A stretch of DNA of 62,130 nucleotides from the NCBI GenBank assembly GCA_945829235.1, contig CALZUA010000019.1, positions 1 through 62,130 on the forward strand. The letters are read 5' to 3'. A program made the translations under genes and the position numbers. Positions 8,606-61,604 of the stretch are shown here, in pieces. Positions within the stretch are counted from its first letter, which is position 1. Each line of letters opens with the position of its first letter. The notes below the pieces were generated by a model. The model searched no databases. It was not told the DNA's origin and saw only the letters and a program-made list of their open reading frames with translations. Origin of the DNA: an uncultured Clostridia bacterium. GTDB lineage: Bacteria; Bacillota; Clostridia; Oscillospirales; Ruminococcaceae.

Positions 8606-8629
8606 ACTACACCTCACCGAAAATCAGTT

Positions 8630-47042: not shown

Positions 47043-48862
47043 GTGACAAAAATCTCGCAAGCAGAACAGATGTACAAGTCGTTTTCGGCGGTGTTGATAT
47101 CAGCGCCGCTGTGAACAGCGACCTTATCTCCTTTACATATACGGACAACGAGGAGGACGAGGCAGACGATTTTCAGCTGAAAGTAATGGACAGGGACGGC
47201 AAGTGGCTGAAAAAGTGGCTTAACACGCTTGTAAATGGCGCGGCAATCGGCGGCGAAATCATAAGTGAGCCGCCCGAAAGCAGCTCCGGTTCAAGTTCGG
47301 GTTATGCATCATCTTCATCTTCTTCGGGCTCGGCGATGGCGTACAAGGTCACCGCTTCGAGCGGCGTCAACGTTCGCGCAAGCGCAAATGACAACGGAAA
47401 AATCCTCGGACAGCTGCCTTATGGCACAGTTGTTGATGTCAAGAAGTTCCTGAGCGATTGGGCGAATATCACTTATTCAGGGAAAAACGCCTACATTAAG
47501 GCGAAAAACCTTAAACCTGTTGGTTCTCCGAGTTCTTCAAACACATCGTCTTCATCGACATATTCTGCGCGTTCAGTGCAAGAAAGCAATACGGAATGGA
47601 AAATCGGAGAAAGCGTTATAGCGACCGGAAACCCGCAATATTCAAGCTATGGCATAGGAAATCCGGGGCGATACGTTGAAAACCACAAAGGAAAAATCAC
47701 ATATCTGAACCTCAAGAGCGGCGTTCCTTATCCGATTTGCGTGGATTATCTCGGCTGGTTCGCTATCTCGCAGATAAAGAAAACCGCTGCCGAAGGGCAG
47801 CAAAAAACGGATAATTCAGGCACAAAAGGCAGCAAGGGTTTGCAGATTTCGGCTGTGATTTGCCGGAAAAATCGAAACGGTGACGGGAAAGATGATGTTC
47901 TCGATTGCGGAACGTTCGAGCTCGACAGCATCGACGCTTCGGGTCCGCCTTCCGTTGTTTCGATAAAAGGAACATCGCTTGCCTATTCCAGCACCATTCG
48001 GCAGACACAGAAAAGCCGTTCCTGGGAGTCAACGACACTCAAGGGAATAGCGGAAACGATTGCACAGAAAAATGGAATGGGGATGCTTTTCGAGTCCGCG
48101 AAAGACCCGAAATATTCCCGCGTTGAGCAATATCGCACATCGGACATCGCGTTCCTGCAGAAGCTTTGTCACAACGCAGGCTGTAGTCTGAAAGCAACGA
48201 ACAACATCATCGTCATTTTCGATCAAGAGAAATTCGAGCAAAAAAGCACAGCGCGAACCATTTGTTTTGGCGAAAAGGGTGGATATACGAAATACAAGCT
48301 CTCAACCGCCGAGAGCGATTTCTACACGTCTTGTCGCGTTTACTACACGACATCTTCGGGCGCGGTCATATCTGCAACGGAGTATTCGGAGGACTACGAC
48401 GGAGACAGCAACAAAGGTCAATGCCTCGAGGTTAGGCAGAAAGTTTCCTCGATTGCTGAGGCGCAGAGCCTCGCGCATAAGCTCCTGCGTTTGCACAACA
48501 AGTACGAGTATACCGCAAGTTTTACATTTCCCGGTGACCCGAGCCTTGTTGCCGGAATAACGGTCGAACTCAAAGATTTCGGCTCGTGGGACGGAAAATA
48601 TCTGATAAAACAGGCAACACACAGCATTTCATCGAGCGGATACACAACTCAAGTCACGTTGAGAAAAGCGCTCAAGGTTTCTGAAAAATCCACAGTCGGA
48701 GCTACTACGGGCGACACCGACGAGCAAATCCAAGAGTTAGCGATGCAGGTTATTCGCGGCGATTGGGGCAACGGTCAGGAACGTTACAGACGCTTGACAG
48801 ACGCAGGGCACGACTACGACAAGGTTCAGGCACGCGTGAACCAAATCCTGAAGGGGTTATGA
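47039..48862 (+). CDS. Baseplate hub/late control protein D with SH3 and CW_7 domains
   Basis: 607 residues. gpD core at both ends of the gene (TDVQVVFGGVDISAAVNSDL, ESTTLKGIAETIAQKNGMGM, RTSDIAFLQKLCHNAGCSLK). An inserted SH3b domain at about 101-162 (VTASSGVNVRASANDNGKIL, GTVVDVKKFL), flanked by Ser-rich linkers. At the C-terminus (about 562-607) a Cpl-7-type repeat (VIRGDWGNGQERYRRLTDAG). The added domains should bind peptidoglycan at the tail tip. The endolysin carries the same CW_7 repeat. Confidence 0.85.
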   Translation: MSDKNLASRTDVQVVFGGVDISAAVNSDLISFTYTDNEEDEADDFQLKVMDRDGKWLKKWLNTLVNGAAIGGEIISEPPESSSGSSSGYASSSSSSGSAMAYKVTASSGVNVRASANDNGKILGQLPYGTVVDVKKFLSDWANITYSGKNAYIKAKNLKPVGSPSSSNTSSSSTYSARSVQESNTEWKIGESVIATGNPQYSSYGIGNPGRYVENHKGKITYLNLKSGVPYPICVDYLGWFAISQIKKTAAEGQQKTDNSGTKGSKGLQISAVICRKNRNGDGKDDVLDCGTFELDSIDASGPPSVVSIKGTSLAYSSTIRQTQKSRSWESTTLKGIAETIAQKNGMGMLFESAKDPKYSRVEQYRTSDIAFLQKLCHNAGCSLKATNNIIVIFDQEKFEQKSTARTICFGEKGGYTKYKLSTAESDFYTSCRVYYTTSSGAVISATEYSEDYDGDSNKGQCLEVRQKVSSIAEAQSLAHKLLRLHNKYEYTASFTFPGDPSLVAGITVELKDFGSWDGKYLIKQATHSISSSGYTTQVTLRKALKVSEKSTVGATTGDTDEQIQELAMQVIRGDWGNGQERYRRLTDAGHDYDKVQARVNQILKGL

Positions 48863-48863
48863 T

Positions 48864-49154
48864 ATGGGCGATATTTTGAGGATTGGCACAGTAAGCAATG
48901 TGAACTACTCCAACCGCACCGTGCGCGTTCGGTTTTCGGATGTCAATATCATTTCGGGGTGGCTTAAGGTGTTGAAAAACTCGCCTTTTATTGGCAATGA
49001 CGAGCCGCCCGAGGATATCTACAAGACAGAAAAGGAAGGCGGGCATTTCCACAAGCTGAACATTTGTCCGTGGTTTCCCGCTATCGGTGATGTTGTCCTA
49101 TGTCTTTACAACCCCGGTTTCAACGAGGACGGTTTCGTGATAGGAGGTTTATGA
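48864..49154 (+). CDS. Baseplate spike protein V-like
   Basis: 96 residues. RIGTVSNVNYSNRTVRVRFS then a short OB-fold (ICPWFPAIGDVVLCLYNPGF, EDGFVIGGL) as in gpV/gp45-type puncturing spikes, but without a long beta-helix; the tip may be a separate part. Confidence 0.75.
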   Translation: MGDILRIGTVSNVNYSNRTVRVRFSDVNIISGWLKVLKNSPFIGNDEPPEDIYKTEKEGGHFHKLNICPWFPAIGDVVLCLYNPGFNEDGFVIGGL

Positions 49155-49543
49155 TGCGGGTCGGCAGTTTTGGAAGCATTGTTTTTTCGGTTTCGCCCAG
49201 AAAAATCGAAACGTTCAAAAACCTCAAGCGTTCGGGCTCGGTGAACTTTTCCGAGCACAAGCGGCACAACGGAAAATCAATTCTTGAATTCACGGGAATA
49301 AATTCCGAGGATATTTCATTTTCGGTCACACTTTCAACAGAACTTGGCATTGATGTTGAAAAAGAAATCGAAAAGATTGTTGATATCGAGAAAAAAGGCG
49401 CTGCACAATATCTCGTTATCGGGAAAAAGATATACGGGAAATTTGTGCTTACAAAACACAGCGTAACTTACAAATACCACGATAAGCGTGGAACGCCTGT
49501 TGTCGCAGAGTTGAGCCTTACGCTGAAGGAATACAACAAATAA
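49154..49543 (+). CDS. Tail protein U-like
   Basis: 129 residues from ATG 49154 (TAGGAGG 6-7 bases upstream). VGSFGSIVFSVSPRKIETF, KRSGSVNFSEHKRHNGKSIL, EFTGINSEDISFSVTL match the P2 gpU family. Confidence 0.85.
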   Translation: MRVGSFGSIVFSVSPRKIETFKNLKRSGSVNFSEHKRHNGKSILEFTGINSEDISFSVTLSTELGIDVEKEIEKIVDIEKKGAAQYLVIGKKIYGKFVLTKHSVTYKYHDKRGTPVVAELSLTLKEYNK

Positions 49544-49553
49544 GGAGCGGTTT

Positions 49554-49877
49554 ATGAGCTACAAAATCAGTTCCGCAGATGAATATAAATTGAATTTCGA
49601 GCAAAATGACGTCGTTCAATCGGTTCTTCAGAACGTTTCGTTGATTTTGAACACCAAAAAGGGAATAGTTCCGATGCACCGCGAATTCGGGCTGCCGATG
49701 GAGTTTATCGACAAGCCGATTGATGTCGCGGAGGCGCTTGCGACAACGGAAATCGCGCAGGCACTGGAGGAGTTTGAGCCGAGGGCGGTTTTGGAAGATG
49801 TTTCTTTCGAGAAAACCGAAACAGGACAGATGGCGATAGTAGTGGAGGTGAGCATTTCCGATGAGCAGACCGATTGA
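49554..49877 (+). CDS. Baseplate wedge protein W (gp25-like)
   Basis: 107 residues. DVVQSVLQNVSLILNTKKGI then VPMHREFGLPMEFIDKPIDV is the gp25/GPW family core, including the EPR-like GLP loop. It joins sheath and baseplate. Confidence 0.88.
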   Translation: MSYKISSADEYKLNFEQNDVVQSVLQNVSLILNTKKGIVPMHREFGLPMEFIDKPIDVAEALATTEIAQALEEFEPRAVLEDVSFEKTETGQMAIVVEVSISDEQTD

Positions 49878-51009
49878 ATATAAGTTCGTGAGCACCAACA
49901 GCGCGGATATCGCAGCAGAACTTACTGCGAAATACGAAGAGCTTACGGGAAGAACGCTCCTTCCCGCAGATCCGGACAAGCTGTTCATCTCGTGGGTTAC
50001 GGGAATCATCGTTCAGGAGCGAATACTTATCAACTACGCGGCGAACCAAAACATTCCGAGCAGAGCGGTTGGAGAGAACCTTGACGCGCTCGGGGAAACA
50101 ATCTACAACGTTTCTCGGCCGCAAGCGAAGCCGGCTGTTTGCACAATGCGTTTCACGATTTCAGAGCCACAGAATACTGCGATTTCAATTCCCATCGGAA
50201 CGAAAGTCACCGACAGCAGCGGCGTTCTCGAATGGCGCACAACGGTTGACGCCGTGATAAACATAGGCGATACATACGCGGACGTCCCGATTATATGCGA
50301 AAAATCGGGCTCCATCGGAAACGGATATGCGCCCGGTCAGATAAACACGCTTATCGATGTCGACAATATTCTGTTTTTCTCGGAATGCAAGAACATCGAA
50401 ACGTCCAACAGCGGCGCGGAAGCAGCGACAGACAGCGAATACTACGAGCTTATGAGGGCGGGACTTGAGGCATTTTCCACAGCCGGCCCGAAAGGCGCGT
50501 ATGAATATCACGCGAAGGCGGTTTCAACAGATATTGCCGATGTTTGCGCCATAAACCCGAAAGACAAGCCTGGGTATGTCAACATTTTCGCGATAATGAA
50601 AGATGGCACAATCGCCGATGATGGCACAAAGAAAGCGATTTTCGAGGCTTGCAGCGACGACAAGGTTCGGCCGCTGACCGACATCGTTGAAGTTGTAGAC
50701 CCCGATGTTGTTGATTTCGACGTTGACCTTGTTTTTTATGCTGAACGTTCTTCTGATGTATCAATGTCCACGATTGAGAAATCAATTTCTGCGGCGGTTG
50801 ATGAATATGAAGAATGGCAGTGCAAAAAGATAGGGCGCGACATCAACCCGTCACGCTTGATGTGGCTGCTGCGTGATTCGGGTGCGAAACGAGTTGATAT
50901 AAAATCTCCCGTTTTCACGGCTTTGCGGGACGGTTCGGACAATCTTGTCCCGCAGGTAGCGCGTTTGCGGGAGATAAAAATAACAAGCGGAGGTTATGAA
51001 GATGAGTAA
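49861..51009 (+). CDS. Baseplate assembly protein J
   Basis: 382 residues. LFISWVTGIIVQERILINYA, QNIPSRAVGENLDALGETIY, GTKVTDSSGVLEWRTT and YEYHAKAVSTDIADVCAINP are the gpJ blocks. Starts 17 bases inside the W gene. Wedge component. Confidence 0.92.
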   Translation: MSRPIEYKFVSTNSADIAAELTAKYEELTGRTLLPADPDKLFISWVTGIIVQERILINYAANQNIPSRAVGENLDALGETIYNVSRPQAKPAVCTMRFTISEPQNTAISIPIGTKVTDSSGVLEWRTTVDAVINIGDTYADVPIICEKSGSIGNGYAPGQINTLIDVDNILFFSECKNIETSNSGAEAATDSEYYELMRAGLEAFSTAGPKGAYEYHAKAVSTDIADVCAINPKDKPGYVNIFAIMKDGTIADDGTKKAIFEACSDDKVRPLTDIVEVVDPDVVDFDVDLVFYAERSSDVSMSTIEKSISAAVDEYEEWQCKKIGRDINPSRLMWLLRDSGAKRVDIKSPVFTALRDGSDNLVPQVARLREIKITSGGYEDE

Positions 51010-51763
51010 CCTTATCACCGAGCCTTCGGCGCTGTTGGCGGCGTTTCCTTACTCGCTTTCTCGCGACAGCAACAAGGAAAAGCTCGCTGACGCTATCGCG
51101 AATGAGCTTGTTCAAACGATTTCCAAAACGGAAAGCGTTGAAATTTTCCCGAGAGTAGACGAGCTGCCCGAAGAAGTCCTCGATATTCTCGCCTACGACT
51201 TGAAAGTCGATTGGTATGAGCCCGAGGCTGACATTCGCTATAAGCGACAGGCAATCAAGGAATGTATGCTCGTTCACAAGTACAAGGGCACAAAATATGC
51301 TGTTGAAACGGCGCTTCGCAGCATGTATAATTCCGCAGAAGTCAAGGAATGGTTTGAGTATGGAGGAGAGCCGTTCCATTTCACGGTCAAGGTTTACGGT
51401 TCAACGTCTTCGGGATTGAGGACGCTATACTTGAAAATACAGTACGCGAAAAATCTGCGTTCCGTATTGGATAACGTAGAGTTTGAGCTTGTTCCCGATG
51501 AAGCGGTTGAAACATTCTTCGGCGCACAGATTGCTTCTATTCAGAAGAGAATCGGGGCGAAACTCGTTGATATGTCCGAGGATATATACACTATTGGAAA
51601 CGGATTTTTTATCGGGGCAAAAGCAAATAAGATGTTCAAGTCCATTTCGGCACTGCTGAAAATTGACAATCTCCCGTTTTTTTCTACTGGAACGAGCATC
51701 TTATACGGCGCAAGAACTACGTCCGTTTCTAAAAAAGTGCGAGCCGACTTGACTTGCAACTAA
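51002..51763 (+). CDS. Tail protein I
   Basis: 253 residues from ATG 51002 (GGAGG 8 bases upstream). DELPEEVLDILAYDLKVDWY, then KRQAIKECMLVHKYKGTKYA and YNSAEVKEWFEYGGEPFHF are typical of P2 gpI. C-terminal half extended compared with P2. Confidence 0.9.
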   Translation: MSNLITEPSALLAAFPYSLSRDSNKEKLADAIANELVQTISKTESVEIFPRVDELPEEVLDILAYDLKVDWYEPEADIRYKRQAIKECMLVHKYKGTKYAVETALRSMYNSAEVKEWFEYGGEPFHFTVKVYGSTSSGLRTLYLKIQYAKNLRSVLDNVEFELVPDEAVETFFGAQIASIQKRIGAKLVDMSEDIYTIGNGFFIGAKANKMFKSISALLKIDNLPFFSTGTSILYGARTTSVSKKVRADLTCN

Positions 51764-51824
51764 GGCAATCTTCGCCTTTATGGGCGATTTGCAATATAAT
51801 CTTCAACGGAATGGGGGTGAACTT

Positions 51825-52547
51825 ATGAGCTGGAGCAAAGTGGTCCTCACGAAAGTCGGCGAGAGCCTTTTGGCGAAAATGCTAAACGGAAGTAAGCTGA
51901 CTTTTACTCGCGCTGTTCTTGGCGATAAGACCGTTGACGAATACGTACTTCCCGAATTGACCGACGTTTTTTCTCCGATTTCTGCTCCTGCGCTTATCGC
52001 AGGAAAACGGGAAACAAAGAGCGGCAACGGAACTGAATTGATTATTCAAATTCGCAACGACGGTGTTACCGAGACAACACGAATGCGGCAGGTTGGACTG
52101 TTCGCGAAATCAGAACACGATGATGAGGTATTGCTTGCCGTTTTGCAGGACGAAATAGGCGAAGAAATACCTACTTATGCGGATTTTTCTCAGTTCGAGA
52201 TTTCGCTTGCCGTAACGATAGCGATAGCACGAACGAATAACATCGCGGTTATCGTTTCTCCTTCTGTCTATGCTACGCAGGGTGACCTTGCGGAACTTAG
52301 AACAGAATGCGAGAAAATCAAGTTTACGGCGGTTGAAACAACCGAACGCGACCCTAACAAGCCGGATTATGGGCTCGATCAGCCGGGTGGGGGGGAGACG
52401 GAAAATGTAACGCTTGAGGCAAGCACTTACACAGGCACAGCGGAAGTTACGCTGATTATGAACAACAAACAGTATGATGCCGCCAATATGACGGCGAAAG
52501 AAGATGCCGCAACAGACGGCACAATGATTATTCAGGAGGAAAAATAA
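51825..52547 (+). CDS. Tail fibre/tail-plate protein, N-terminal attachment type
   Basis: 240 residues from ATG 51825 (GGGGGTGA upstream). SWSKVVLTKVGESLLAKMLN, GSKLTFTRAVLGDKTVDEY, TRMRQVGLFAKSEHDDEVLL are like the conserved N-terminus of fibres attached to gpI. The C-terminal part is beta-rich and variable-looking. Confidence 0.7.
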   Translation: MSWSKVVLTKVGESLLAKMLNGSKLTFTRAVLGDKTVDEYVLPELTDVFSPISAPALIAGKRETKSGNGTELIIQIRNDGVTETTRMRQVGLFAKSEHDDEVLLAVLQDEIGEEIPTYADFSQFEISLAVTIAIARTNNIAVIVSPSVYATQGDLAELRTECEKIKFTAVETTERDPNKPDYGLDQPGGGETENVTLEASTYTGTAEVTLIMNNKQYDAANMTAKEDAATDGTMIIQEEK

Positions 52548-52549
52548 CT

Positions 52550-53137
52550 ATGGCTACCACAAAAGCAATTCTTGCGAAAATTAAACTCGAAGGCGAAATT
52601 AAGGACCTTATCGCGAAGTCCAACGGCGAAAACGTTGCAGTCACCTACGGCGGAAAGAACGAGACCCTCTCCGAAGCTCTCGCTGAAATCCTTGCTTCTA
52701 TCAACGCGCTGCCTACCAGCGAGGGTGTAATTAACACCGTTACAACAGAGATTGCAAAGGTTGTTGACGGTGCTCCCGAGAGCTTCGACACTCTTAAGGA
52801 GATTGCTACATACATCGAAGAGCACCAGGGAGTTGTTGACACGCTTAATGCTGCTATCGGCAACAAGGTTGACAAGGTTGAGGGCAAGGGCCTTTCTACC
52901 GAGGACTTCACTACCGCGCTCAAGAACAAGCTCGAAAATCTCCCCGTAATCTCTGCGGAAGATGTCGAGAGCTGGAACAACAAGGCTACAAAGGACGTGG
53001 CTACCACCTCCGCTGCAGGTCTGATGTCTGCTGCTGATAAGACTCGCCTTGATGGTATCAGAGGCGTAAGAGTCGGTTCTACCGTTCCCGATGATATGCA
53101 GGACGGCGAACTCTTCGTTCAGCTCGTTTCCGAGTAA
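52550..53137 (+). CDS. Tail fibre-like repeat protein
   Basis: 195 residues. Helical/beta repeats (VNTVTTEIAKVVDGAPESFD, LKEIATYIEEHQGVVDTLNA) and the fibre motif TTSAAGLMSAADKTRLDGI. It is likely a trimeric shaft segment. Synonymous codon use (GAGAGC, GACACTC) looks less A-rich than neighbours, possibly a recent exchange. Confidence 0.65.
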   Translation: MATTKAILAKIKLEGEIKDLIAKSNGENVAVTYGGKNETLSEALAEILASINALPTSEGVINTVTTEIAKVVDGAPESFDTLKEIATYIEEHQGVVDTLNAAIGNKVDKVEGKGLSTEDFTTALKNKLENLPVISAEDVESWNNKATKDVATTSAAGLMSAADKTRLDGIRGVRVGSTVPDDMQDGELFVQLVSE

Positions 53138-53160
53138 TCCTACACAACGGCTTTTAATTG

Positions 53161-53190
53161 TTCGCCGGGGCAATAGTCCCGGCGAATTTT
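53161..53190 (+). terminator. Intergenic terminator inside the tail operon
   Basis: TTCGCCGGG (53161-53169) / CCCGGCGAA (53178-53186) followed by TTTTTAT, between the fibre gene and the two genes before the retroelement. It could lower expression of the DGR target. Confidence 0.65.
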
Positions 53191-53204
53191 TATAAGGAGG
53201 AAAA

Positions 53205-53771
53205 ATGAAAGAACAAAAAACAGTCCTCTCCACACAGGTCAATGGCGAAACCGCCATTGTTATGCCCATCACAAAGCTGGAGTGCATCGAAGACACCGCG
53301 ACTTCGGTTGATTCTGCAAGCGATACCGACTACATCCCTGTTATCGACAGCGCAGATGAAGGTCAAATGAAGAAAATCACTGTCGAAAATTTACTTTCCG
53401 GCGTGAAATCCATTGCAAATACTGCGAAAACGGCAGCTACCGAGGCTAAATCCGCTGCAGAAACCGCGCAGGCAGCCGCAAGCAGTGCCGCTTCCTCATC
53501 AACACCCGTTGCGTTCTCCATTGAAGCCACCGCTTGGACAACGCTTGAAACAGAGGTTTGCGGACGTGCCTATTTTGCAACATTTACCGCAACAGGTGTT
53601 ACTGCTCTGGATTTCCCCGATGTGTATTTCGATAAGGATAGCATTGTTGCGGCAGACGCTTCAAGCATTTTGGCAGATACGGCTGCAGACACAGTGGTTT
53701 TATACGCAAAAACAAAGCCTACTTCAACGCTTTCGGGAACTTATTTCATTAAGAAGGGGGCGGCTTCGTAA
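53205..53771 (+). CDS. Tail-tip/fibre accessory protein
   Basis: 188 residues. An Ala-rich coiled coil (ANTAKTAATEAKSAAETAQA) links an N-terminal segment to a beta-rich C-terminal domain. AAGGAGG precedes the ATG. Its stop overlaps the start of the DGR target protein, so the two are coupled and may assemble together. No family recognised. Confidence 0.6.
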   Translation: MKEQKTVLSTQVNGETAIVMPITKLECIEDTATSVDSASDTDYIPVIDSADEGQMKKITVENLLSGVKSIANTAKTAATEAKSAAETAQAAASSAASSSTPVAFSIEATAWTTLETEVCGRAYFATFTATGVTALDFPDVYFDKDSIVAADASSILADTAADTVVLYAKTKPTSTLSGTYFIKKGAAS

Positions 53772-55111
53772 TGGCACTCGGCAGAACAAACATTCTCATT
53801 TCGAGCAGCTCGGGCGGCGGCTCCGGGAGTGAAGGCTCGGTTGATTTGCCGCTTAACTTGAAATCATTTACTGCGACAAAAGGCACGGCAAAGGTGCTTC
53901 TCGCTTGGGACTACTCGAACACAAATGACCTTACAGGTTTGCAGATAAACTACAAGACAGGCTCCTATCCGTCCTCTCCGAGTGACGGAACGAGCGTTGT
54001 CATCGCTGATACAACCACAAAAAGCAAGGAAATCACAGGGCTGACGAACGACACAACATATTATTTCCGCGCGTATCCGTATCGCGAGGTTGACGGCGGC
54101 AAGTACTATCAGACATACAACGAGAACTGCAAGGCAAGCGCGACACCGTCCGTATTCCTCGAGGGAGCGATTGATATTGATGGTTCTGCGTTCTATCTTA
54201 TCCCGAAAGCGACTTGGGCAGAAATGGGCGTCGGTACATCGAACGAAATTCACCCGATGTTCAAAGTCGGCGGAAAAGTTCTCGATTATGTCGCAATCGG
54301 GCGATATGAGGCTTCGTTGAGCGGTTCAAAGGCTGTGTCTAAGAAGGGAGTTTCGCCGAAGGTGAGCGTTACGCATACCGAAAGCGAAACGTACTGCAAG
54401 AACAGCGGCAGCGGCTGGCATCTTATCACGCGCTTGGAATGGGCGAGTATCGCGAACTGGTGTGCGAAGAACGGCATTACTCCGAGCGGAAATATAAGCG
54501 GTTCTTCGGTTCTGGCAACAGGCTCGAGCTCCAGCACGACTTATTCTCACAACGGAAAATCCGATGGAATATGGGATTTGTGCGGAAATGTGTGGGAATG
54601 GAACTCGGGATTTCGTCTTTACAAGGGCGAGCTTCAGGTGATTTCGCTTGACGGCAATTTCAACAATGACGCTGCGGACGCTTCTGTTGACCAGAGCGCA
54701 TCATCTCCGTATTGGTACGCTGTTGACGGAACAACGGGAAGCCTTATCAAACCGAACGGCAGCGGAACGACTGCGAACAGTCTGAAAATCACTGCATCGG
54801 GCTGGAACATAAGCAGCTCCTCGGCAAATTATAGCAACGGATACGACAACATCACCTGCGCTTCCTCGTCAATATGCCAGAAAGCGAAGGACATTCTCAC
54901 TGCGCTTGGATTGTTGAAAAATTCGGCTCTTACTTCAAGCACAGATGATTATCTCAATCTGTACAAAAACACGTCCGGAGAATACATCGGCTTCTCCGGT
55001 GGCTACTTCAGCAGTGGCTCGGGCGCCGGCGTGTTTGCGTTCGACTGCCACTACGGCCGCGCGGACTCGAGCGCGGCCGTCGGGTTCCGGCCCGCTTTTG
55101 TACCACTGTAA
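53771..55111 (+). CDS. DGR target protein: tail tip with C-type-lectin/FGE variable domain
   Basis: 446 residues. After a Ser/Gly linker (10-25) a fibronectin-III-like domain (about 30-125: LAWDYSNTNDLTGLQINYKT, YYFRAYPYREVDGGKYY) leads to a C-type-lectin/formylglycine-enzyme fold (about 130-446) with GIWDLCGNVWEWNSGF and the end GFRPAFVPL. Residues 406-443 are the variable repeat (54986-55098), matching the template downstream except at template adenines. 16 residues differ from the template: 408, 412-415, 418, 425, 427-429, 431, 432, 434-437. It should be the receptor-binding tip, diversified by the retroelement. Confidence 0.93.
   Translation: MALGRTNILISSSSGGGSGSEGSVDLPLNLKSFTATKGTAKVLLAWDYSNTNDLTGLQINYKTGSYPSSPSDGTSVVIADTTTKSKEITGLTNDTTYYFRAYPYREVDGGKYYQTYNENCKASATPSVFLEGAIDIDGSAFYLIPKATWAEMGVGTSNEIHPMFKVGGKVLDYVAIGRYEASLSGSKAVSKKGVSPKVSVTHTESETYCKNSGSGWHLITRLEWASIANWCAKNGITPSGNISGSSVLATGSSSSTTYSHNGKSDGIWDLCGNVWEWNSGFRLYKGELQVISLDGNFNNDAADASVDQSASSPYWYAVDGTTGSLIKPNGSGTTANSLKITASGWNISSSSANYSNGYDNITCASSSICQKAKDILTALGLLKNSALTSSTDDYLNLYKNTSGEYIGFSGGYFSSGSGAGVFAFDCHYGRADSSAAVGFRPAFVPL
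54986..55098 (+). repeat. Variable repeat (VR) of the diversity-generating retroelement
   Basis: 113 bp aligned without gaps to the TR at 55653-55765. Of 26 template adenines, 17 differ here (12 A-to-G, 4 A-to-T, 1 A-to-C); none of the 87 other positions differ. The 3' end, GGGTTCCGGCCCGCTTT, is an invariant GC-rich stretch like an initiation-of-mutagenic-homing site. Confidence 0.95.
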
Positions 55112-55132
55112 TTTGGCGACTGTGTTCTGATA

Positions 55133-55150
55133 CCGCTGCGATAGCAGCGG
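55133..55150 (+). other. DGR homing hairpin
   Basis: CCGCTGC GATA GCAGCGG: a 7-bp GC-rich stem with a GATA loop, 34 bases after the VR. In the BPP-1 system a hairpin/cruciform with a GRNA loop downstream of VR aids target recognition; GATA fits GRNA. Confidence 0.7.
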
Positions 55151-55159
55151 ACAGTAACT

Positions 55160-55174
55160 CCCGCCGAAGGCGGG
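55160..55174 (+). other. Second GC hairpin downstream of VR
   Basis: CCCGCC GAA GGCGGG, ten bases after the GATA-loop hairpin, with no T-tract. It may be part of the homing site or the mRNA 3' end. Confidence 0.45.
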
Positions 55175-55205
55175 TCGCGCGAAATTTTTCGTGGGCGATT
55201 GATAT

Positions 55206-55230
55206 AAAATATCGAAAAACGATATTTTTC
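55206..55230 (+). terminator. Terminator of the tail operon
   Basis: AAAATATCG (55206-55214) / CGATATTTT (55220-55228) followed by TC, at the end of the 180-base gap between target gene and avd. Confidence 0.6.
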
Positions 55231-55262
55231 AATAGAAATCCAACATTATCGATTTTTTGTGT

Positions 55263-55268
55263 TATAAT
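55263..55268 (+). promoter_or_regulatory. -10 box for the avd-TR-RT transcript
   Basis: TATAAT 24 bases before the avd ATG, with only a poor -35 (CCAACA, 17-bp spacing). A separate promoter would let the retroelement be expressed apart from the late genes. Confidence 0.4.
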
Positions 55269-55291
55269 TACACAAGAAAAGAGGGAGAGCA

Positions 55292-55639
55292 ATGGACGAA
55301 CTGAAGATTTTGCAGAAGCTGTTTGATATGATAGAATACGGATATCAGGCAATTCAGCAATTTCCGAAAAGTGAGAAATATGCCCTCGGAACAGACATAA
55401 AGCGATGTATGGACGTAATGCTCGAACGCTGTATTGAGGCGAAAAAGAAGTATTACAAGAAAACAACCTTGCAGGAGCTTGATGTTGAAAAGGAAAAATT
55501 ACTCGCATATCTGCGCCTTGCCCACACTCTTGGATTTCTTCCCATCAAAAAATACGAAATTTGGTGCGAAAAAGCAGTCGAAATAGGTAAGATGTTAGGG
55601 GGCTGGCTGAAAACCGTCAACGCCGGTCCCAAAACATAA
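55292..55639 (+). CDS. avd: DGR accessory variability determinant
   Basis: 115 residues, all helical and basic: LQKLFDMIEYGYQAIQQFPK, YALGTDIKRCMDVMLERCIE, KEKLLAYLRLAHTLGFLPIK, YEIWCEKAVEIGKMLGGWLK. This is the four-helix-bundle Avd, which forms a pentamer and binds RT and the template RNA. GAGGGAG precedes the ATG. Order target-avd-TR-RT is that of Bordetella phage BPP-1. Confidence 0.9.
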   Translation: MDELKILQKLFDMIEYGYQAIQQFPKSEKYALGTDIKRCMDVMLERCIEAKKKYYKKTTLQELDVEKEKLLAYLRLAHTLGFLPIKKYEIWCEKAVEIGKMLGGWLKTVNAGPKT

Positions 55640-55910
55640 GGTGCAAATCGTTATCGGCTACTCCGGTGGCAACTACAACAATGGCTCGAACGCCGGCGTG
55701 TTTGCGTTCAACTGCAACAACGACCGCACGAACTCGAACACGACCATCGGGTTCCGGCCCGCTTTACCCATAAGCCAGAAATCGCAAGCTCACGGGCTTG
55801 CCCTCAGAGCAGGGAAATTAAAGGGATTTGTATCTTTCGCGAAAGCGGAAAAAAGGTCTGTCCGCATATTCCGCTACGGCTGAAAAGTGCGGAAACGAGA
55901 GGAGCTGTGT
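55640..55910 (+). ncRNA. DGR template RNA region (TR plus structured spacer)
   Basis: Begins right after the avd stop and ends at the RT start. TR (55653-55765) is followed by a spacer with hairpins GCAAGC/GCTTGC (55784/55796), the palindrome CTTTCGCGAAAG (55834-55845) and CCGCA/TGCGG (55862/55888). In known systems the spacer primes and guides cDNA synthesis. A short reading frame over this region is a by-product of the repeat, not a gene. Confidence 0.75.
55653..55765 (+). repeat. Template repeat (TR) of the diversity-generating retroelement
   Basis: 113 bp, offset 667 bp from VR. Nine AAY codons in the VR frame allow wide amino-acid change without stop codons. Source copy; adenines are miscopied during reverse transcription. 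Confidence 0.95.
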
Positions 55911-57032
55911 ATGGAAAAACACGAACACGTTTTCGAGAGATTTATTGATTTTGAAAACCTGTATGGCGGTTATCTCCTTGCGCGCAAAAACAAACGATAT
56001 CAGGACGAAGTGCTGTCATACACGGCGAATCTTGAGGAAAATCTGATAAACGCGCAAAACCACCTCATTTGGAAAAGTTATGAAGTCGGTCCGATGCGCG
56101 AATTCATCGAGTATTTTCCCAAAAAGCGCATTATTACGGTAATGCCATTCGCGAATCGTGTCGTTAATTGCGCAGCTTACAACGTCCTTTTCCCGATATA
56201 TCGGAAATCATTCTACGAGCACAGTTACGGTTCAATTCCCGGAAAAGGTCCGATAAGAGCAGCGAGGCAACTACAATACTGGATGCGGCTTGTACGGAAT
56301 AAAAACGAGGATTGGTATCTCTGCAAAATGGATATCGCAAAATTTTTCTTCCGAATTCCCGTTGATGTGCAATTGGAGCGGCTTGGAATGCCACTGAACG
56401 ACCCGGATATGATGTGGTTTTTGGAGAAGGCGATAATGTGCGATGGGCGTGCGTTCGGTCTGCCTGTTGACGCGACAGACGTCACCGAATGTGAGCGCAT
56501 TATGGGAATAGGAATGCAGGTAGGCTCGCTCATTTCGCAGATGACCGCGAATGTTGTCCTTTCGGCCGCAGACCACTACATCAAGCGCGTTCTGAAAGTT
56601 CCGTATTATATTCGTTATATGGACGATATGATTTTCCTTGTTCCGTCAAAAGAACAGGCGCACGACGTTCTCGGCACGTTCCGAAAGTTCCTGTGGAACG
56701 AGTTGAGGCTTGAACTCAACAGAAAAACCACAATAATGCCGTATGATGCAGGTGTTGAGTTTGTCGGAAAGGTTGTCACTCCCGATAAAATCATAATGCG
56801 GCGTTCAACATCGCTACGAATGAAACGACACTTGAAATACATAATGGATCACTACGCTACCGGAGAAATCTCGCTTGACTATGCACTTGCATCAATTCGT
56901 TCCTACCTGGGAATGATGAAACACTGCGATTGTACAGCGTTGAGGAACAAGGTCCTGCAAGATTGGAAACTCGTCCGTAATTTTGCGGAGGATTTTCCAG
57001 ATGACAACTATAATTCTTATCCCGATTTTTAA
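55911..57032 (+). CDS. DGR reverse transcriptase
   Basis: 373 residues from ATG 55911 (GAGAGGAG six bases upstream). RT motifs in order: RIITVMPFANRVVNCAAYNV (1-2), KMDIAKFFFRI (3, about 139-149), GSLISQMTAN (4, with the SQ typical of DGR enzymes, about 205-214), YIRYMDDMIF (5, YMDD at 236-239), LNRKTTIMP and FVGKVVTPD (6-7). No maturase or endonuclease domain, as expected for a DGR. Makes adenine-mutated cDNA from TR, which replaces VR. The stop overlaps a terminator. Confidence 0.95.
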   Translation: MEKHEHVFERFIDFENLYGGYLLARKNKRYQDEVLSYTANLEENLINAQNHLIWKSYEVGPMREFIEYFPKKRIITVMPFANRVVNCAAYNVLFPIYRKSFYEHSYGSIPGKGPIRAARQLQYWMRLVRNKNEDWYLCKMDIAKFFFRIPVDVQLERLGMPLNDPDMMWFLEKAIMCDGRAFGLPVDATDVTECERIMGIGMQVGSLISQMTANVVLSAADHYIKRVLKVPYYIRYMDDMIFLVPSKEQAHDVLGTFRKFLWNELRLELNRKTTIMPYDAGVEFVGKVVTPDKIIMRRSTSLRMKRHLKYIMDHYATGEISLDYALASIRSYLGMMKHCDCTALRNKVLQDWKLVRNFAEDFPDDNYNSYPDF

Positions 57033-57046
57033 TCGGGATTTTTTAT
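57019..57046 (+). terminator. Terminator overlapping the RT stop
   Basis: ATCCCGAT (57019-57026) / ATCGGGAT (57032-57039) then TTTTT; the RT stop TAA 57030-57032 lies in the loop. Confidence 0.75.
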
Positions 57047-57065
57047 TTCCGAAAGAGGTGATTTA

Positions 57066-57419
57066 ATGGAAAGTACAATCGTAGTCGCGCTCATCAGCGC
57101 GGTAGCGACGGTTTTCAACGTGGTTTTCACCACACTCAGCAGCAGGAAAACCGAACAGGCGGCGCGAAGAGCTGCCGAAGAAGCAGAAAAATGCAAGGAA
57201 GACAGGGCGGTTGCCAACGGGCTTCAGTGTCTTTTGCGCGTAGAAATCATCAGAACGCATGCAAAATACACAGTGAAAAAATTCTGTCCTGTCTGGGCGC
57301 GCGAAAATCTTATCGCCATTCACGACGCTTATAAAGGTCTTGGAGGCAATCATATCGGCGATGATATGTTCAACGAGGTAATGGCGCTCCCGTATGAGCC
57401 GCCGAAGGAGGACGAATGA
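57066..57419 (+). CDS. Membrane protein of the lysis module (holin-like)
   Basis: 117 residues. One N-terminal transmembrane helix (TIVVALISAVATVFNVVF), then a charged coil (ARRAAEEAEKCKED) and a soluble remainder. Precedes two holin-like genes; may be a holin modulator. No firm family. Confidence 0.55.
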   Translation: MESTIVVALISAVATVFNVVFTTLSSRKTEQAARRAAEEAEKCKEDRAVANGLQCLLRVEIIRTHAKYTVKKFCPVWARENLIAIHDAYKGLGGNHIGDDMFNEVMALPYEPPKEDE

Positions 57420-57706
57420 AAAACAAAATCGAAACAAGCAAGAAAATCATAGCCGTGAGCTACATCATAGGAATTCTTCTCGTAATTTTGACAGTCGCGG
57501 GAATTATTCTTGGCTACGACGTTTCAGCGCTGGGAATTATCACAGGAGCGACTTTCGCGGAAATCTCGGTTTCCAATGCGTTTTACTACAACAAGGCGAA
57601 AAAAGAAAATCTGCTGAAAATCGCGGCGGGAGCGGCTAACGGCGCAGACACGGAAAAGGTTGACGATATTGTCAAGATTATTTCGGCTTTAGGAGGTATT
57701 GTATGA
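57416..57706 (+). CDS. Holin-like protein 1
   Basis: 96 residues. Two transmembrane helices (IIAVSYIIGILLVILTVAGI and ALGIITGATFAEISVSNAFY) and a charged C-terminus with VDDIVKIISALG. ATGA overlaps on both sides. Lysis-module position supports a holin or antiholin. Confidence 0.65.
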   Translation: MKNKIETSKKIIAVSYIIGILLVILTVAGIILGYDVSALGIITGATFAEISVSNAFYYNKAKKENLLKIAAGAANGADTEKVDDIVKIISALGGIV

Positions 57707-57942
57707 AAAACAAAATCGACTGGAAACGCAAGCTCACAAGCCGTAAATTCTGGGTTGCGCTTGCAGGATTTATCGCCGGACTTATTGTAGCTTTCGGCGG
57801 CTCGGACGGCGAAGCTGAAACGGTTACCGGCTGCATTATGTCACTTGCAGCTGTTGTTGCATATGTTGTCGGTGAAGGACTGACTGACGTTGCGGCGTTG
57901 AAGAATGAAAACAAATCTGATGAATCAGACAAGGAGGAATAA
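57703..57942 (+). CDS. Holin (phi LC3-like)
   Basis: 79 residues. NKIDWKRKLTSRKFWVALAG, FIAGLIVAFGG, then CIMSLAAVVAYVVGEGLTDV and an acidic end follow the phi LC3 class II holins (two helices, WKxKLxSRKFW start). Permits endolysin release. Confidence 0.8.
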   Translation: MKNKIDWKRKLTSRKFWVALAGFIAGLIVAFGGSDGEAETVTGCIMSLAAVVAYVVGEGLTDVAALKNENKSDESDKEE

Positions 57943-57945
57943 ACT

Positions 57946-58938
57946 ATGGCATTGAACATTCAGGGTGTTGATATAAGCTACTGCCAGTCTGGTCTTGATT
58001 ACCGAAAACTCAAGGCAGACGGAATTAAGTTCGCAATAATCAGAGCTAGTATCACCGGAACAAGCACACATAAGCAGTTCGCGGACGACCTGCTGAACAG
58101 GCACGTCAACGGTTGTATTGGTCAGGGAATTGATTACGGATTCTATCACTACTCCTGCGCGACTAGCGTTGAGGAGGCGCGGAAAGAGGCACAGTTCTGC
58201 GTTGAGCAGATTAAGCAGTATCCGCTGCCGAAATACCCCGTGTTCTTCGACGCCGAGGAAGCGCAGATTGCGAAAAAGGGGAAAAAGGTTGCAACCGACA
58301 TCGCTCTTGCGTTTATCGAGGAAGTCGAGCGTCTCGGATATCCCTCGGGCATTTACGCAAACCCCAATTGGTTCGAGAACAATCTCGACAAGTCGCGCCT
58401 TATCAATAATAAGGACATCTGGCTCGCACATTGGGTAGCACAGACAAGCTACCATTACGGGCAGAAGATTTGGCAGAACGGACTTCGCTATTCTGCCGGA
58501 TTAAAAATCGATTCCGACATCTGCTTCGTGAACTATCCGCAGGAAACGGAAGCGTGGTATAAGAAGCACAATAAGCAGTTCGCACAGCCTGAGAAGAAGT
58601 CGCTTGATACACTTGTCAACGAGGTAATGAGCGGTTTGTGGGGCTGTGGTCAGCAGCGCTATGACGAACTCACCGCCGCTGGATACGATTACTACGCAGT
58701 TCAGGACGAAATCAACCGGAGAATCAAAGACCAGGAGAGAAATTCTTCGGCGTCAATCAAGGTTGGCAGCAAGGTTAGAGTCAAGAACAACGCTAAGACC
58801 TACAACGGCGGCTATCTCGCGCCGTTTGTATCTTCAAGAATACATACCGTAAGCGAACTGATTCGCGACCGCGCCGTGATTTCCTACGGGAACGTGGTTG
58901 TCGCTGCGGTCAATGTGAACGATTTATATTTAATATAA
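57946..58938 (+). CDS. Endolysin: GH25 muramidase with CW_7 and SH3-like domains
   Basis: 330 residues. GH25 domain 5-195 (GVDISYCQSG with Asp9, VFFDAEEAQ with Asp102 and Glu104, IWLAHWVAQ). A Cpl-7 repeat at about 220-262 (VMSGLWGCGQQRYDELTAAG) and a C-terminal SH3-like part (VGSKVRVKNNAKTYNGGYLA). Cleaves glycan strands at the end of the lytic cycle. AAGGAGG precedes the ATG. Confidence 0.93.
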   Translation: MALNIQGVDISYCQSGLDYRKLKADGIKFAIIRASITGTSTHKQFADDLLNRHVNGCIGQGIDYGFYHYSCATSVEEARKEAQFCVEQIKQYPLPKYPVFFDAEEAQIAKKGKKVATDIALAFIEEVERLGYPSGIYANPNWFENNLDKSRLINNKDIWLAHWVAQTSYHYGQKIWQNGLRYSAGLKIDSDICFVNYPQETEAWYKKHNKQFAQPEKKSLDTLVNEVMSGLWGCGQQRYDELTAAGYDYYAVQDEINRRIKDQERNSSASIKVGSKVRVKNNAKTYNGGYLAPFVSSRIHTVSELIRDRAVISYGNVVVAAVNVNDLYLI

Positions 58939-58941
58939 GTT

Positions 58942-58976
58942 AAGCCGCCCGGGGATTTCCTTGGGCGGCTTTTGTT
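58942..58976 (+). terminator. Terminator of the lysis module
   Basis: AAGCCGCCC (58942-58950) / GGGCGGCTT (58963-58971) followed by TTGTTT. Confidence 0.85.
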
Positions 58977-59104
58977 TATATACACCAAAAACTTGTCCTT
59001 GTTTTTGTCAAATGTGTAGAATATAAGCCAAACGCATTAAAAAATTCAAAAAACTGCGGGAATTTTGCTTGAAAAGCTCGAGGAACAGAACAGACTAATT
59101 TAAC

Positions 59105-59140
59105 AAAAAATCCCCTCGGATTTCTCCGAGGGGAAAATCA
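59105..59140 (-). terminator. Terminator of the right-end XRE gene
   Basis: TCCCCTCGGA (59111-59120) / TCCGAGGGGA (59125-59134); the minus-strand exit is TTTTTTG. Confidence 0.8.
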
Positions 59141-59395
59141 TTGCCTGGACTTATACACGCTCTGCGATACGCAGCGCCTTATGGTTTGCAGCTTGTTAGG
59201 CGTATACTCCACTATCTCCGATAAGTCGCAGCCTAATGCCTCGCATATCTTGTCCAGATTTTCCAAGCTTACACGGTCTGCCACATCGTGATAAAGGTCG
59301 TTTATAGTGTTCGGCCTTATTCCGGTAGCGTCCGAAAGCTCGGCTTGCGTAATCCGCAACTCGCCCATTTTGCGGCTCAGCAAAAGCCTAATCAT
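59138..59395 (-). CDS. XRE-family regulator
   Basis: 85 residues; GAGGAG upstream of ATG 59395 on the minus strand. LSRKMGELRITQAELSDATG, then IRPNTINDLYHDVADRVSLE and LDKICEALGCDLSEIVEYTP are a complete helix-turn-helix of the short, stand-alone kind (YozG-like). May belong to the prophage end or to the next mobile element; no partner gene. Confidence 0.75.
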   Translation of the reverse strand: MIRLLLSRKMGELRITQAELSDATGIRPNTINDLYHDVADRVSLENLDKICEALGCDLSEIVEYTPNKLQTIRRCVSQSVYKSRQ

Positions 59396-59609
59396 AAAAA
59401 CACTCCTCTTGATGAATTATAGCATTTTTTGGGCGATATTTGCGGAAAATGTTGGAAAATAACGAAAATCGTTCGATTATATCGAAAAATTGAACTAAAA
59501 ATAAAATTCCCGAATTAATCGGGGGCAAATAAGGGATATGGACGCAAATCCGCATCACAAAAGGAATTGTAGTGCCGCAAGAAACGCAAACCATATCTGA
59601 ACAAAGATT

Positions 59610-59649
59610 AAAGGACGCTTTTCGGTGAAAGGTGTCCTTTTTCTTTACA
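59610..59649 (+). terminator. Intrinsic terminator
   Basis: AAAGGAC (59610-59616) / GTCCTTT (59634-59640) with TTCTTT after it, in the gene-poor stretch 59396-60015. No gene I can support lies upstream on the plus strand, which suggests the end of a lost gene. Confidence 0.55.
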
Positions 59650-59714
59650 ACTGAATAGAAGCATACGCCTATGGAAATTCGTGTTTAAAGCGGATACCAT
59701 TTATAATAGGTGTA

Positions 59715-59750
59715 ACGGAGAGTTTTTGAAAGAAGCTCTCCGTTTTTTTG
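59715..59750 (+). terminator. Intrinsic terminator
   Basis: ACGGAGAG (59715-59722) / CTCTCCGT (59736-59743) with a TTTTTT tail. Confidence 0.7.
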
Positions 59751-59770
59751 TGCCAAAAAATCAAATAATG

Positions 59771-59917
59771 GTTAAACTCCCTCAAGGGATTTAACAGTAC
59801 GGCAAAGGTAGCTCCTTTGGGGTGAGGTTTCCTCTTTCCTCACCCTCGCCGTACATATATAGAAAAAGAGGTCGAAAATGGTGTAAAGCTGCAATATTAT
59901 TGCAGAAGAAAGCACCA
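59771..59917 (+). ncRNA. Candidate structured RNA upstream of the replication gene
   Basis: Hairpin GTTAAA/TTTAAC (59771/59790), a three-way junction closed by GTACGGC/GCCGTAC (59797/59848) with arms AAAGG/CCTTT and GGGTGAGG/CCTCACCC (59820/59838), and a third hairpin GGTG...CTGCAAT/ATTGCAG...CACC (59880-59916). Perfect complementarity of all arms argues for selection. Probable leader or copy-control RNA of the next gene. Confidence 0.5.
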
Positions 59918-60015
59918 AATCTTAAAATAGTATGTTTAGCCGACTGCCGTATGAGTTGTCGGCTTTTGTTGTTTATTAGCGTTAGCTGTGCTAAATGAGG
60001 AAGAGAGGAATTGTT

Positions 60016-60984
60016 ATGTCAACAGTATTCAGAGTTGAGAAAACCGCAAATTACACGGTTATGTCGAACACGCACCTGAAAGACAGGCGGCTCTCCTACA
60101 AGTCAAAGGGGCTGCTGTCCGTTATTTTGAGTTTGCCGCCCGATTGGGACTACACTATCACAGGCTTGGCTGTTATCGCCGCAGACGGTGTTGACAGCGT
60201 TAAGACCGCTATCAAGGAGCTTGAGCAGTACGGTTATGTTACCCGAACACAGCTCCGTGATGAGCGTGGACGAATGGCGCAGAATGAGTACAGAGTGTAC
60301 GAAAATCCCACCGATAATCCCGACTTTGTTCAGCACGAACAGGTATCACCTGAACAGGAAATTCCCGATGAAAAGCCGAGCCGTGCTGTGCCGAAGATAA
60401 AGAGGAAGCGTAATTTTTCTGTATCTCCGTCAGCGGAAAATCCGTCAACGGTTACTCCGACAGCGGATAATCCCACAGCGGACACCATTGAAAAATTAAA
60501 TATAAATATATTAAATACCGACAAATCAATTCACTCATTCACTCCTGCGCAGGCGCAGGAGCGTGAGGACAGGATTGAATTGATAGACAAAGGCAAGAAT
60601 ATTTCGTTTTCGTCTATTGCCGAACGGGAGTTGTACGGCGAGATAATCCGTGAAAACATCTCCTACGAGGATAAATATGCTCGTAATATCGGCGAAAGAC
60701 AGCAAGTGGACGAGTTGGTTTCGATTATGACGGACGTGGTATGTTCAAGTTCGCCGACTATCCGTGTAAACGGCGAAGCGGTATTGCACGAGGTCGTTAA
60801 GAGCCGTTTCCTGAAGCTCACCGATGAAGAAATCGACTACGTTCTGTACGCTATGCGGCATAATTCAAGCCGTGTCGGGAATATACGCTCATATCTCATC
60901 ACTATGCTCTATAACTCCAAGTCAACCGTTAGCAATTACTTTGCGAATATGGCTTACAATGACATTCGTGAGGGCGTTATTTGA
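60016..60984 (+). CDS. Replication-initiator-like HTH protein of a mobile element
   Basis: 322 residues from ATG 60016 (AGAGGA upstream). FRVEKTANYTVMSNTHLKDR, LSYKSKGLLSVILSLPPDWD, YTITGLAVIAADGVDSVKTA, LEQYGYVTRTQLRDERGRM form a winged-helix DNA-binding start found in Rep-like proteins of clostridial conjugative and mobilizable elements. A linker follows, then a conserved C-terminal helical domain (LVSIMTDVVCSSSPTIRVNG, EEIDYVLYAMRHNSSRVGNI). Codon use looks different from the prophage (few AGAs, more GAG). Confidence 0.7.
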   Translation: MSTVFRVEKTANYTVMSNTHLKDRRLSYKSKGLLSVILSLPPDWDYTITGLAVIAADGVDSVKTAIKELEQYGYVTRTQLRDERGRMAQNEYRVYENPTDNPDFVQHEQVSPEQEIPDEKPSRAVPKIKRKRNFSVSPSAENPSTVTPTADNPTADTIEKLNINILNTDKSIHSFTPAQAQEREDRIELIDKGKNISFSSIAERELYGEIIRENISYEDKYARNIGERQQVDELVSIMTDVVCSSSPTIRVNGEAVLHEVVKSRFLKLTDEEIDYVLYAMRHNSSRVGNIRSYLITMLYNSKSTVSNYFANMAYNDIREGVI

Positions 60985-61037
60985 GAAGCGTTTTCCCGAC
61001 AGGCTTGTGCGAAAAGAGGGCGATATATGTATTCACC

Positions 61038-61067
61038 TTGACAATTCTGCCACCGATGCTGTATAAT
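61038..61067 (+). promoter_or_regulatory. Promoter for the 61104 gene
   Basis: TTGACA (61038-61043), 18-bp spacer, TATAAT (61062-61067). Confidence 0.65.
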
Positions 61068-61103
61068 GGAAACAGAAAACAATGCGGCAGAAAGGAGCTT
61101 CTT

Positions 61104-61352
61104 ATGGAGAAAATCGAGGGTTTCAGCGCAATCGGTATTGAGGAGGTCGAGTGGGGTGAGTTTACATCTTCTTGGTCAATCAAGTTTATGGTTGAGCTGG
61201 AGGACAGAAAGTACCACAAGGACTTTAATCCTAAATTCGTTGATGTTCTGAATTGGGCTTTTGCTCACAAGGATATGATACGGGATATGCCGTTTGAGGA
61301 ACAGGAACGGCTGATGATTGAGGCCGGAGTGATTACCGCCGCAGACATCTGA
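61104..61352 (+). CDS. Unknown mobile-element protein, 82 aa
   Basis: From ATG 61104 (AAAGGAG upstream). FSAIGIEEVEWGEFTSSWSI and KFMVELEDRKYHKDFNPKFV: an acidic small protein frequently seen between Rep-like and Mob genes on clostridial elements. Own promoter. Function unknown. Confidence 0.55.
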   Translation: MEKIEGFSAIGIEEVEWGEFTSSWSIKFMVELEDRKYHKDFNPKFVDVLNWAFAHKDMIRDMPFEEQERLMIEAGVITAADI

Positions 61353-61435
61353 TACAACTGAATATATTGCAAAGCGGAGAATGTAAAAGTTTTCCGCTTT
61401 TTTCAATAAGCACTTGAAAATTCGGCTGTATAGTG

Positions 61436-61531
61436 GTATTACCAAACCAATTTCACACTGAGTACCACCGTGTCACACTGAGTCACACTAAAACTCCGAT
61501 TCCATGGGGCTTTTTGGTGGTAAGACCCCGC
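61436..61531 (+). other. Candidate transfer origin (oriT)
   Basis: TGGTATTACCA (about 61434), two copies of CACACTGAGT plus CACACT, ACCACC and the inverted GGTGGT, ending in a GTAAGACCCCGCTTG nick-like stretch, right before the MobC-like gene. Repeats and place fit an oriT; the nick site is not shown. Confidence 0.4.
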
Positions 61532-61560: not shown

Positions 61561-61604
61561 AGATAATGAAAATGGGCGAATACTATGATTTTGGAGGTTT
61601 GTCT

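Follow-up and report, generated by a model that had tools for sequence, protein, structure and literature searches.

Diversity-generating retroelements (DGRs) in the order of BPP-1, where mtd is followed by avd, the template repeat (TR) and the reverse transcriptase (RT) gene brt, are common, and in BPP-1 itself the variable repeat (VR) changes at adenines only and is followed by a hairpin. The structured spacer between the BPP-1 TR and RT matches Rfam RF03022, 'Bacteriophage Diversity-Generating Retroelement RNA'. According to PMC12875486, this spacer recruits RT-Avd and primes the cDNA. A comparable run of baseplate or tail genes, small genes, target, avd, RT and lysis genes is given in the deposited annotations of FP_Lagaffe (a Faecalibacterium phage), Dulem virus 37 and BalMu-1 (a Bacillus phage, with target and avd unnamed). 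Here a further DGR is described, from contig CALZUA010000019.1 of assembly GCA_945829235.1 (an uncultured Clostridia bacterium), the whole of which, 62,130 nucleotides, is referred to as the window. It is a real and complete member of this well-known kind and, judged by its sequence, probably a working one; we hold with high confidence that a complete DGR, likely working, sits in an integrated contractile-tailed phage; it would mutagenise a putative tail-tip lectin domain at template adenines and appears to have been grafted onto a fibronectin type III (FnIII) arm.

Gene order, the DGR-class RT motif together with YMDD, a structured TR-RT spacer and an FGE-type lectin fold are common to BPP-1 and the window, whereas the two RTs are 30% identical (over 326 residues), the window spacer belongs to another Rfam family (RT-14), and the window has a contractile-tail operon and an FnIII arm instead of the N-terminal part of Mtd. 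The RTs of FP_Lagaffe, Dulem virus 37 and BalMu-1 are 38-43% identical to that of the window, and an N-terminal FnIII domain is not seen in their annotations, no search for it having been made. BalMu-1 has the RT-14 RNA as the window does, in contrast to FP_Lagaffe and Dulem virus 37, which gave no RT-14 hit. FP_Lagaffe has two VRs (PMC11792537), where the window has one. Closer still are the DGRs of L083, L084 and L003 (Clostridia records and a viral contig), with RT 75-78% and avd 76-78% identical and the same cassette order and sizes; their targets have about 34 residues before the lectin domain (the median of 68 targets of RT relatives) and no FnIII match, and the fibre, 195-aa and 188-aa genes of the window were not found there, L084 and L003 holding little upstream sequence. 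TaqVP of Thermus aquaticus, a single-domain protein (PMC6328139), is without the FnIII arm.

The direct repeats in 52000-58500 form one family, the VR/TR pair at an offset of 667, and no other same-strand repeat above threshold occurs in 48001-60000. Over their 113 positions VR and TR have 17 mismatches, and all 17 are among the 26 adenines of TR (hypergeometric p 4.9e-14); from TR to VR there are 12 changes of A to G, 4 of A to T and 1 of A to C. Codons without adenine are unchanged, and 16 of the 17 adenine-bearing codons differ between VR and TR, the VR ending in codon 443 of the 446 in the target. No second VR was found in the window's own genome (3.2 Mb, 52 contigs), a VR query matching only VR and TR. 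Hairpins of at least 7 bp with a GNNA loop follow the VR at 59 of 72 loci, the window included, against 103 of 14,181 random 70-nt windows (0.7%). In its C-terminal part the target has the same lectin fold as TaqVP, a DGR protein of known structure (PDB 5vf4), and the target, avd and RT frames are all open. The initial annotation is thus borne out in its description of a complete DGR in BPP-1 order with intact frames, a lectin/FGE target carrying the VR at its 3' end, a downstream hairpin and a YMDD reverse transcriptase.

DGR-class RTs carry the signature [LIV]GxxxSQ plus YxDD, and in the window RT both motifs are present, undamaged, as VGSLISQ and YMDD, besides domain matches to RVT_1 (1.7e-17) and phrog_1423 (2.6e-106). 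The best solved match is 8ub7 (3.1e-28), presumably the BPP-1 enzyme. In the RT phylogeny, a check first proposed with the initial annotation, the window RT pairs with L083 (98/96) in a clade of DGR relatives that has 14 rows and 100/100 support, and it falls together with the RTs of BPP-1 and other DGRs; the other RT of the genome is a very long branch. That second RT (L001, G000:C5:158823-159455) has YADD, adjoins an ATPase-like and a transposase-like open reading frame (ORF) and by its sequence looks like a retron or defence RT. A defence-type assignment of the window RT was set aside, its matches to 54 PADLOC RT models (best E 3.3e-30, to a general RT model) being read as the similarity that RTs have in common. 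The most likely start codon of the window RT is ATG 55911 and not GTG 55887, because AGGAG lies just upstream of that ATG and alignments to the better-matching relatives mostly begin at about residue 8 or 9 of the long ORF. Against L083, dN for RT is 0.18 with synonymous sites saturated, and dN/dS for avd is 0.09. Among related RTs, L004 and L086 have NMDD in place of the catalytic YMDD, and this form may be active because most VR differences between L086 and its relative L005 (20 of 23) are still at template adenines. At L286 (4207-5337) a DGR has an adenine-only repeat pair (15/15) and an RT broken into two open pieces.

In the spacer between TR and RT the sole Rfam hit is RT-14, beginning at the final bases of TR, and RF03022 gives no match there. 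An alignment of 20 spacers has 39 base pairs, with changes on both sides in 28, and a covariation score of 0.577 against 0.258 when shuffled (none of 500 shuffles reaching 0.577) and at most 0.146 when slid. The Rfam model at gathering score with default filters finds 5 of the 20 relatives scanned (1/10 and 4/10), and also BalMu-1, and therefore misses most of the window's RT clade. A covariance model built here gives 85 hits at 81 loci, 61 of them not used in building, from 79 of 100 sources and 2 of 32 in a second set, every hit being on the RT strand. At loci with a known TR, 63 of 71 hits begin between -5 and +35 nt from the TR end; of the eight elsewhere, six are in a threefold array of L058 and L099 and two at partly detected TRs. 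No hit of this model was obtained in L225, L259, L260, L262, FP_Lagaffe, Dulem virus 37, BPP-1 or L230. An independent search for RT-14 across 398 genomes of the phylum gave a match in 12 (11 above cut-off), and in all 12 the RNA is downstream of an Avd gene and upstream of a window-like RT (31-45% identical in the other 11). The TR ends within 4 nt of the RT-14 start in 10 of the 12, the window's own genome included, the exceptions being L289, with RT-14 at the contig start, and L285. RT-9 (RF03080) is likewise placed in L230 and L290, and RT-9 hits below cut-off in L291 and L292 follow adenine-biased repeats (9/9 and 17/19), no RT being matched there.

The RT-14 RNA most likely does the same job as the BPP-1 spacer, loading RT and Avd and priming, because it sits as that spacer does between avd and a DGR-type RT. 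No statement linking RT-14 to DGRs was found in literature on RT-14 or on Rfam with DGRs, PMC8143477 included, and an earlier one is possible in the RT-family source (Weinberg 2017). Some spacer loci are more elaborate than that of the window. L285 has two RT-14 copies 593 nt apart, each preceded by a TR-like repeat and both upstream of a single RT; neither the usual SQ motif in that RT nor a clean VR or repeat pair was found. In Fervidicella metallireducens (L058 5221-5993 and L099 7221-7993) three tandem TR-plus-RT-14 units with a 304-nt period precede one RT, two TRs differing at 2 of 121 positions and the third at 21, and because the TRs differ this may be one DGR with several templates for one target. 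A Trp_leader match at 56958-57046, below gathering score, was dropped, as was an anti-hemB match.

The proposed pathway starts from a transcript that runs from the last part of avd through TR and the folded spacer RNA, and this transcript would be bound by RT and Avd. The spacer would load the enzyme and prime copying of TR into cDNA, with random bases placed opposite template adenines, and the cDNA would then replace VR by homing, a step expected to require the unchanging 3' end of VR and the hairpin beyond it. Template adenines fall in 17 codons of the tail-tip lectin domain, so these codons would be diversified and progeny phage with different tips would result. For the window DGR, loading, priming, homing and receptor binding are all predicted steps in this sense.

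On sequence comparison the DGR and the lectin part of the target appear to have been joined to the tail-tip gene of relatives without a DGR, because the N-terminus and tail genes match the DGR-less L225, and the cassette matches DGR phages without that N-terminus. L225, in a viral contig of 60.8 kb, carries the same tail operon (hub 55%, J 64%, I 57%, fibre 58%, 195-aa gene 55%, 188-aa gene 54% and target N-terminus 47% identical), and past FnIII its tip protein has a glycine-rich domain (PF21722 7.2e-05, just below cut-off). Avd and the lectin part were not found in the L225 tail stretch compared, and the whole record has no RT match, an absence that is weak as the record may be a fragment. 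Sister prophages L259, L260 and L262, from the same host genus (TerL 70-75%), have tail genes in common at similar identity; avd, RT and lectin part were not found in the tail stretches examined, and their genomes gave no such RT in a search of the kind that detects the window's own genome, an absence weakened in the same way wherever a record is a fragment (G489 is 89% complete). After its 188-like gene L262 has a glycine-rich 258-aa protein, and L259 and L260 have different fibre ends. Outside the comparison are L261, which ends before the tip, G506, with too short a contig, and three genomes with weaker TerL matches. On the DGR side L083, L085 and L086 have hub to tail I in common with the window (RT 71-76% and avd 76-78% identical), and the fibre, 195-aa and 188-aa genes and the FnIII arm are unmatched there. 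In 68 full-length targets from RT relatives the lectin domain is preceded by a median of 34 residues and never by more than 100. Further relatives of the FnIII arm or 188-aa gene are L229 and L231, on the same contig as L225, and L230. The 188-aa gene also has weak matches in G154 and G429, from ORF lists read by eye, and the gene following the G429 match resembles a further tip of two domains, the second of them FnIII-like.

The graft would then have placed lectin part, avd, TR, spacer RNA and RT, at a domain border, behind the FnIII arm of the tip gene of the DGR-less relatives. That arm and DGR are instead an old combination, the L225 lineage having lost its DGR and swapped the lectin part for a glycine-rich domain, seems unlikely although not negligibly so: direction is not readable from so few genomes and mosaicism runs both ways, but the missing RT in L225 and the three sister genomes, the missing avd and lectin part in their tail stretches and the want of a long N-terminus in any of the 68 other targets all speak against loss, and gain in the window lineage takes fewer steps.

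The FnIII domain is clear by predicted fold but not by Pfam, where PF00041 scores 17.6 bits against a curated cut-off of 25 (E 0.0044), and so the fibronectin-III layout proposed at the outset stands on fold and falls below the family threshold. The short coupled upstream gene noted with it is the 188-aa small tail protein overlapping the target start, with its homolog in L225. The suggestion of a tail-tip design not described before did not survive, the FnIII-plus-VR layout being not new but unusual within the window's own RT clade. One ORF holds both an FnIII-like domain and a VR in L230, whose DGR belongs to another RT clade (15 of 20 mismatches at A), and likewise in the three distant DGR loci L144 (21/23 mismatches at A), L156 (11/11) and L162 (15/15). 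The L230 tip had no lectin-profile match in a small search whose domain E-values were computed over a set of five proteins; in that search the end of the L226 protein matched the lectin profile weakly. L226, among whose listed ORFs neither RT nor avd is seen, also has an FnIII match (5.6e-05) that falls just short of the cut-off. The Pioen target has an extra N-terminal tail-fibre-like domain compared with the Roos target (PMC11792537).

Several observations weigh against graft, integration or present activity. Identity to the graft partners is only 47% for the N-terminus and 44% for the lectin part, and so a breakpoint is not visible. The lectin domain is 43-48% identical to those of the RT-closest relatives, where pairs of similar RT identity average 57-60%, and therefore lectin part and RT may have different histories, the former separate or faster. 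No attachment repeats of at least 12 nt were found between 6701-7600 and 58901-62130. Nor was a near-identical phage found, the best RT identity being 78% in viral contigs and 79% in genome contigs, so that the VR comparison was feasible on relatives only. Among the 11 locus pairs at or above 96.4% cassette identity VRs are identical in 5, of which L034/L094 and L058/L099 look like the same strain twice and two further pairs are near-duplicates; in L060/L061, however, 0 of 116 VR positions differ yet the flanks do, at 38 of 1,046 positions upstream and 18 of 1,200 on the RT side.

The same comparison, drawn from 19 pairs with at least 90% cassette identity, also gives the evidence for activity. 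VRs differ in the other 6 of the 11 closest pairs, with 74 of 79 differences at TR adenines, and L020/L023, L028/L029 and L077/L078 (the last from a distant RT clade) have 7, 11 and 14 VR differences with zero in the other stretches compared. In the 8 pairs below 96.4% many VR differences are not at adenines, mostly where the TRs differ too (L006/L008, 96.3%, 9 of 24 at adenines). The repeat finder used for relatives demands at least 80% of mismatches at A, and its tally (126 of 160 relatives; 1,677 of 1,713 mismatches) is biased by design and not used as proof. Because VRs differ at adenines in some near-identical pairs and are identical in others, DGRs of this kind are active, or were until recently, in some lineages and not visibly in others. 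The adenine-limited variation that the initial annotation looked for is largely present in the six diverging pairs, and L060/L061 shows, in one pair, the identical VR beside varying neighbours that it named as refuting. L003/L004 are near-identical through target, VR (115/115) and into avd, after which identity drops to 61-96% across the last part of avd, the TR and most of RT; this is either a recent RT-side swap under an unchanged VR or an assembly chimera.

For the window copy activity is a prediction, to which these relatives lend indirect evidence. A silent DGR, with intact parts and homing that has ceased, for instance through want of expression or a lost partner, and a VR frozen as its past product, would fit the lack of a direct sign of activity for this copy and the identical VRs just described, but is quite improbable given the intact RT and avd frames and motifs, purifying selection on both against L083, a spacer RNA above the Rfam cut-off and zero mismatches at non-adenine positions, which decay would add.

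Target, avd and RT follow tail I, the fibre genes and the 188-aa gene and precede the lysis genes, and the tail-tip role that this suggests is strengthened by the glycine-rich proteins filling the same slot in related phages, in L225 with the same N-terminus and in L262 after the same genes. That the diversified protein sits elsewhere on the virion surface, decorating the capsid or binding mucus, as has been put forward for the Ig-repeat target of phage Mushu (PMC11792537), is very improbable against this gene order, these two glycine-rich slots and the like position of the FP_Lagaffe and Dulem virus 37 targets past baseplate or tail genes.

The setting is that of a prophage. Host-like genes (DUF815 ATPase, DHH, CotH) lie at the left end, with an integrase (7463-8617) to their right, then replication initiator, terminase, portal, head protease, head, sheath, tape measure, hub, baseplate and tail I, three tail genes, the DGR, three small genes and the GH25 endolysin; terminase, portal, head maturation protease and major head protein have PHROGs matches. 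The P2-like character given in the initial annotation holds only for parts of the tail and baseplate (tail I matching Tail_P2_I); the DGR does lie at the end of a contractile-tail operon. The host is probably one of the Clostridia: the closest genome relatives of the RT (L083-L098) are mostly titled Clostridia, Oscillospiraceae or Ruminococcus, with one Fusobacterium naviforme, and several come from sheep, goat and deer, in keeping with the gut- or rumen-type Clostridia host foreseen. The baseplate hub protein (47039-48862) has an SH3 domain and a CW_7 repeat resembling the endolysin's, and is possibly a wall-binding hub. Past the endolysin, an XRE-type regulator, a DUF6017 protein and a MobC/NikA-like protein (59138-61991) suggest a mobilisable element adjoining or nested at the prophage end.

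Table 1. Features of the DGR and its neighbourhood in the window.
Feature	Position	Strand	Details
DGR, whole	53771-57032	+	order: target with VR, hairpin, avd, TR, RT (BPP-1 order)
Target gene, 446 aa	53771..55111	+	FnIII N-terminus and FGE-type C-type-lectin C-terminus; putative tail-tip protein
N-terminal arm (MALGRTNI...) and one FnIII domain, residues 1-136	53771..54178	+	homologous to L225 tip protein
C-type-lectin domain (FGE subtype), residues 137-446	54179..55108	+	
VR, 113 nt	54986..55098	+	17 mismatches against TR, all at TR adenines
VR/TR-identical 3' end, 19 nt	55080..55098	+	putatively like an initiation of mutagenic homing (IMH) site
Hairpin CCGCTGC-GATA-GCAGCGG	55133..55150	+	7 bp, GATA loop; 34 nt past VR
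avd accessory gene, 115 aa	55292..55639	+	PF22296 4.7e-31; phrog_3206 'Avd protein of DGR' 7.4e-40
TR	55653..55765	+	26 adenines, falling in 17 codons; 9 codons AAY
Structured spacer RNA, Rfam RF02921 (RT-14)	55762..55892	+	52.4 bits against gathering 48.1; model 1-144 complete
DGR reverse transcriptase, 373 aa from ATG	55911..57032	+	ORF open from GTG 55887
Baseplate J-like	49861-51009	+	phrog_6
Tail protein I	50996-51763	+	Tail_P2_I
Tail-fibre protein, 255 aa	51780..52547	+	phrog_7037 5.4e-22
Tail-fibre-like protein, 195 aa	52550..53137	+	homologs in L225, L262
Small tail protein, 188 aa	53205..53771	+	stop overlaps target start; L225 homolog 54%
GH25 endolysin, closes late operon	57946..58938	+	PF01183 8.3e-26

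Overall, recombination inside target genes has been suggested to fuse varied domains to the C-terminal lectin region (Roux et al. 2021, PMC8144416), and the window target would be a concrete case of such intragenic fusion. With DGR-less phages known for the other half of the target, gain and loss of a DGR become testable. We somewhat favour the broader view in which RT-14 and RT-9 are loading and priming spacers, counterparts of the BPP-1 RNA, and the DGR is a transplantable unit that in this prophage lineage made a fixed glycine-rich tip slot hypermutable by domain-border recombination. If the role assigned to RT-14 is true, truncated or diverged DGRs could be found by their RNA, and the RNA-loading step of BPP-1 would become comparable across Bacillota.

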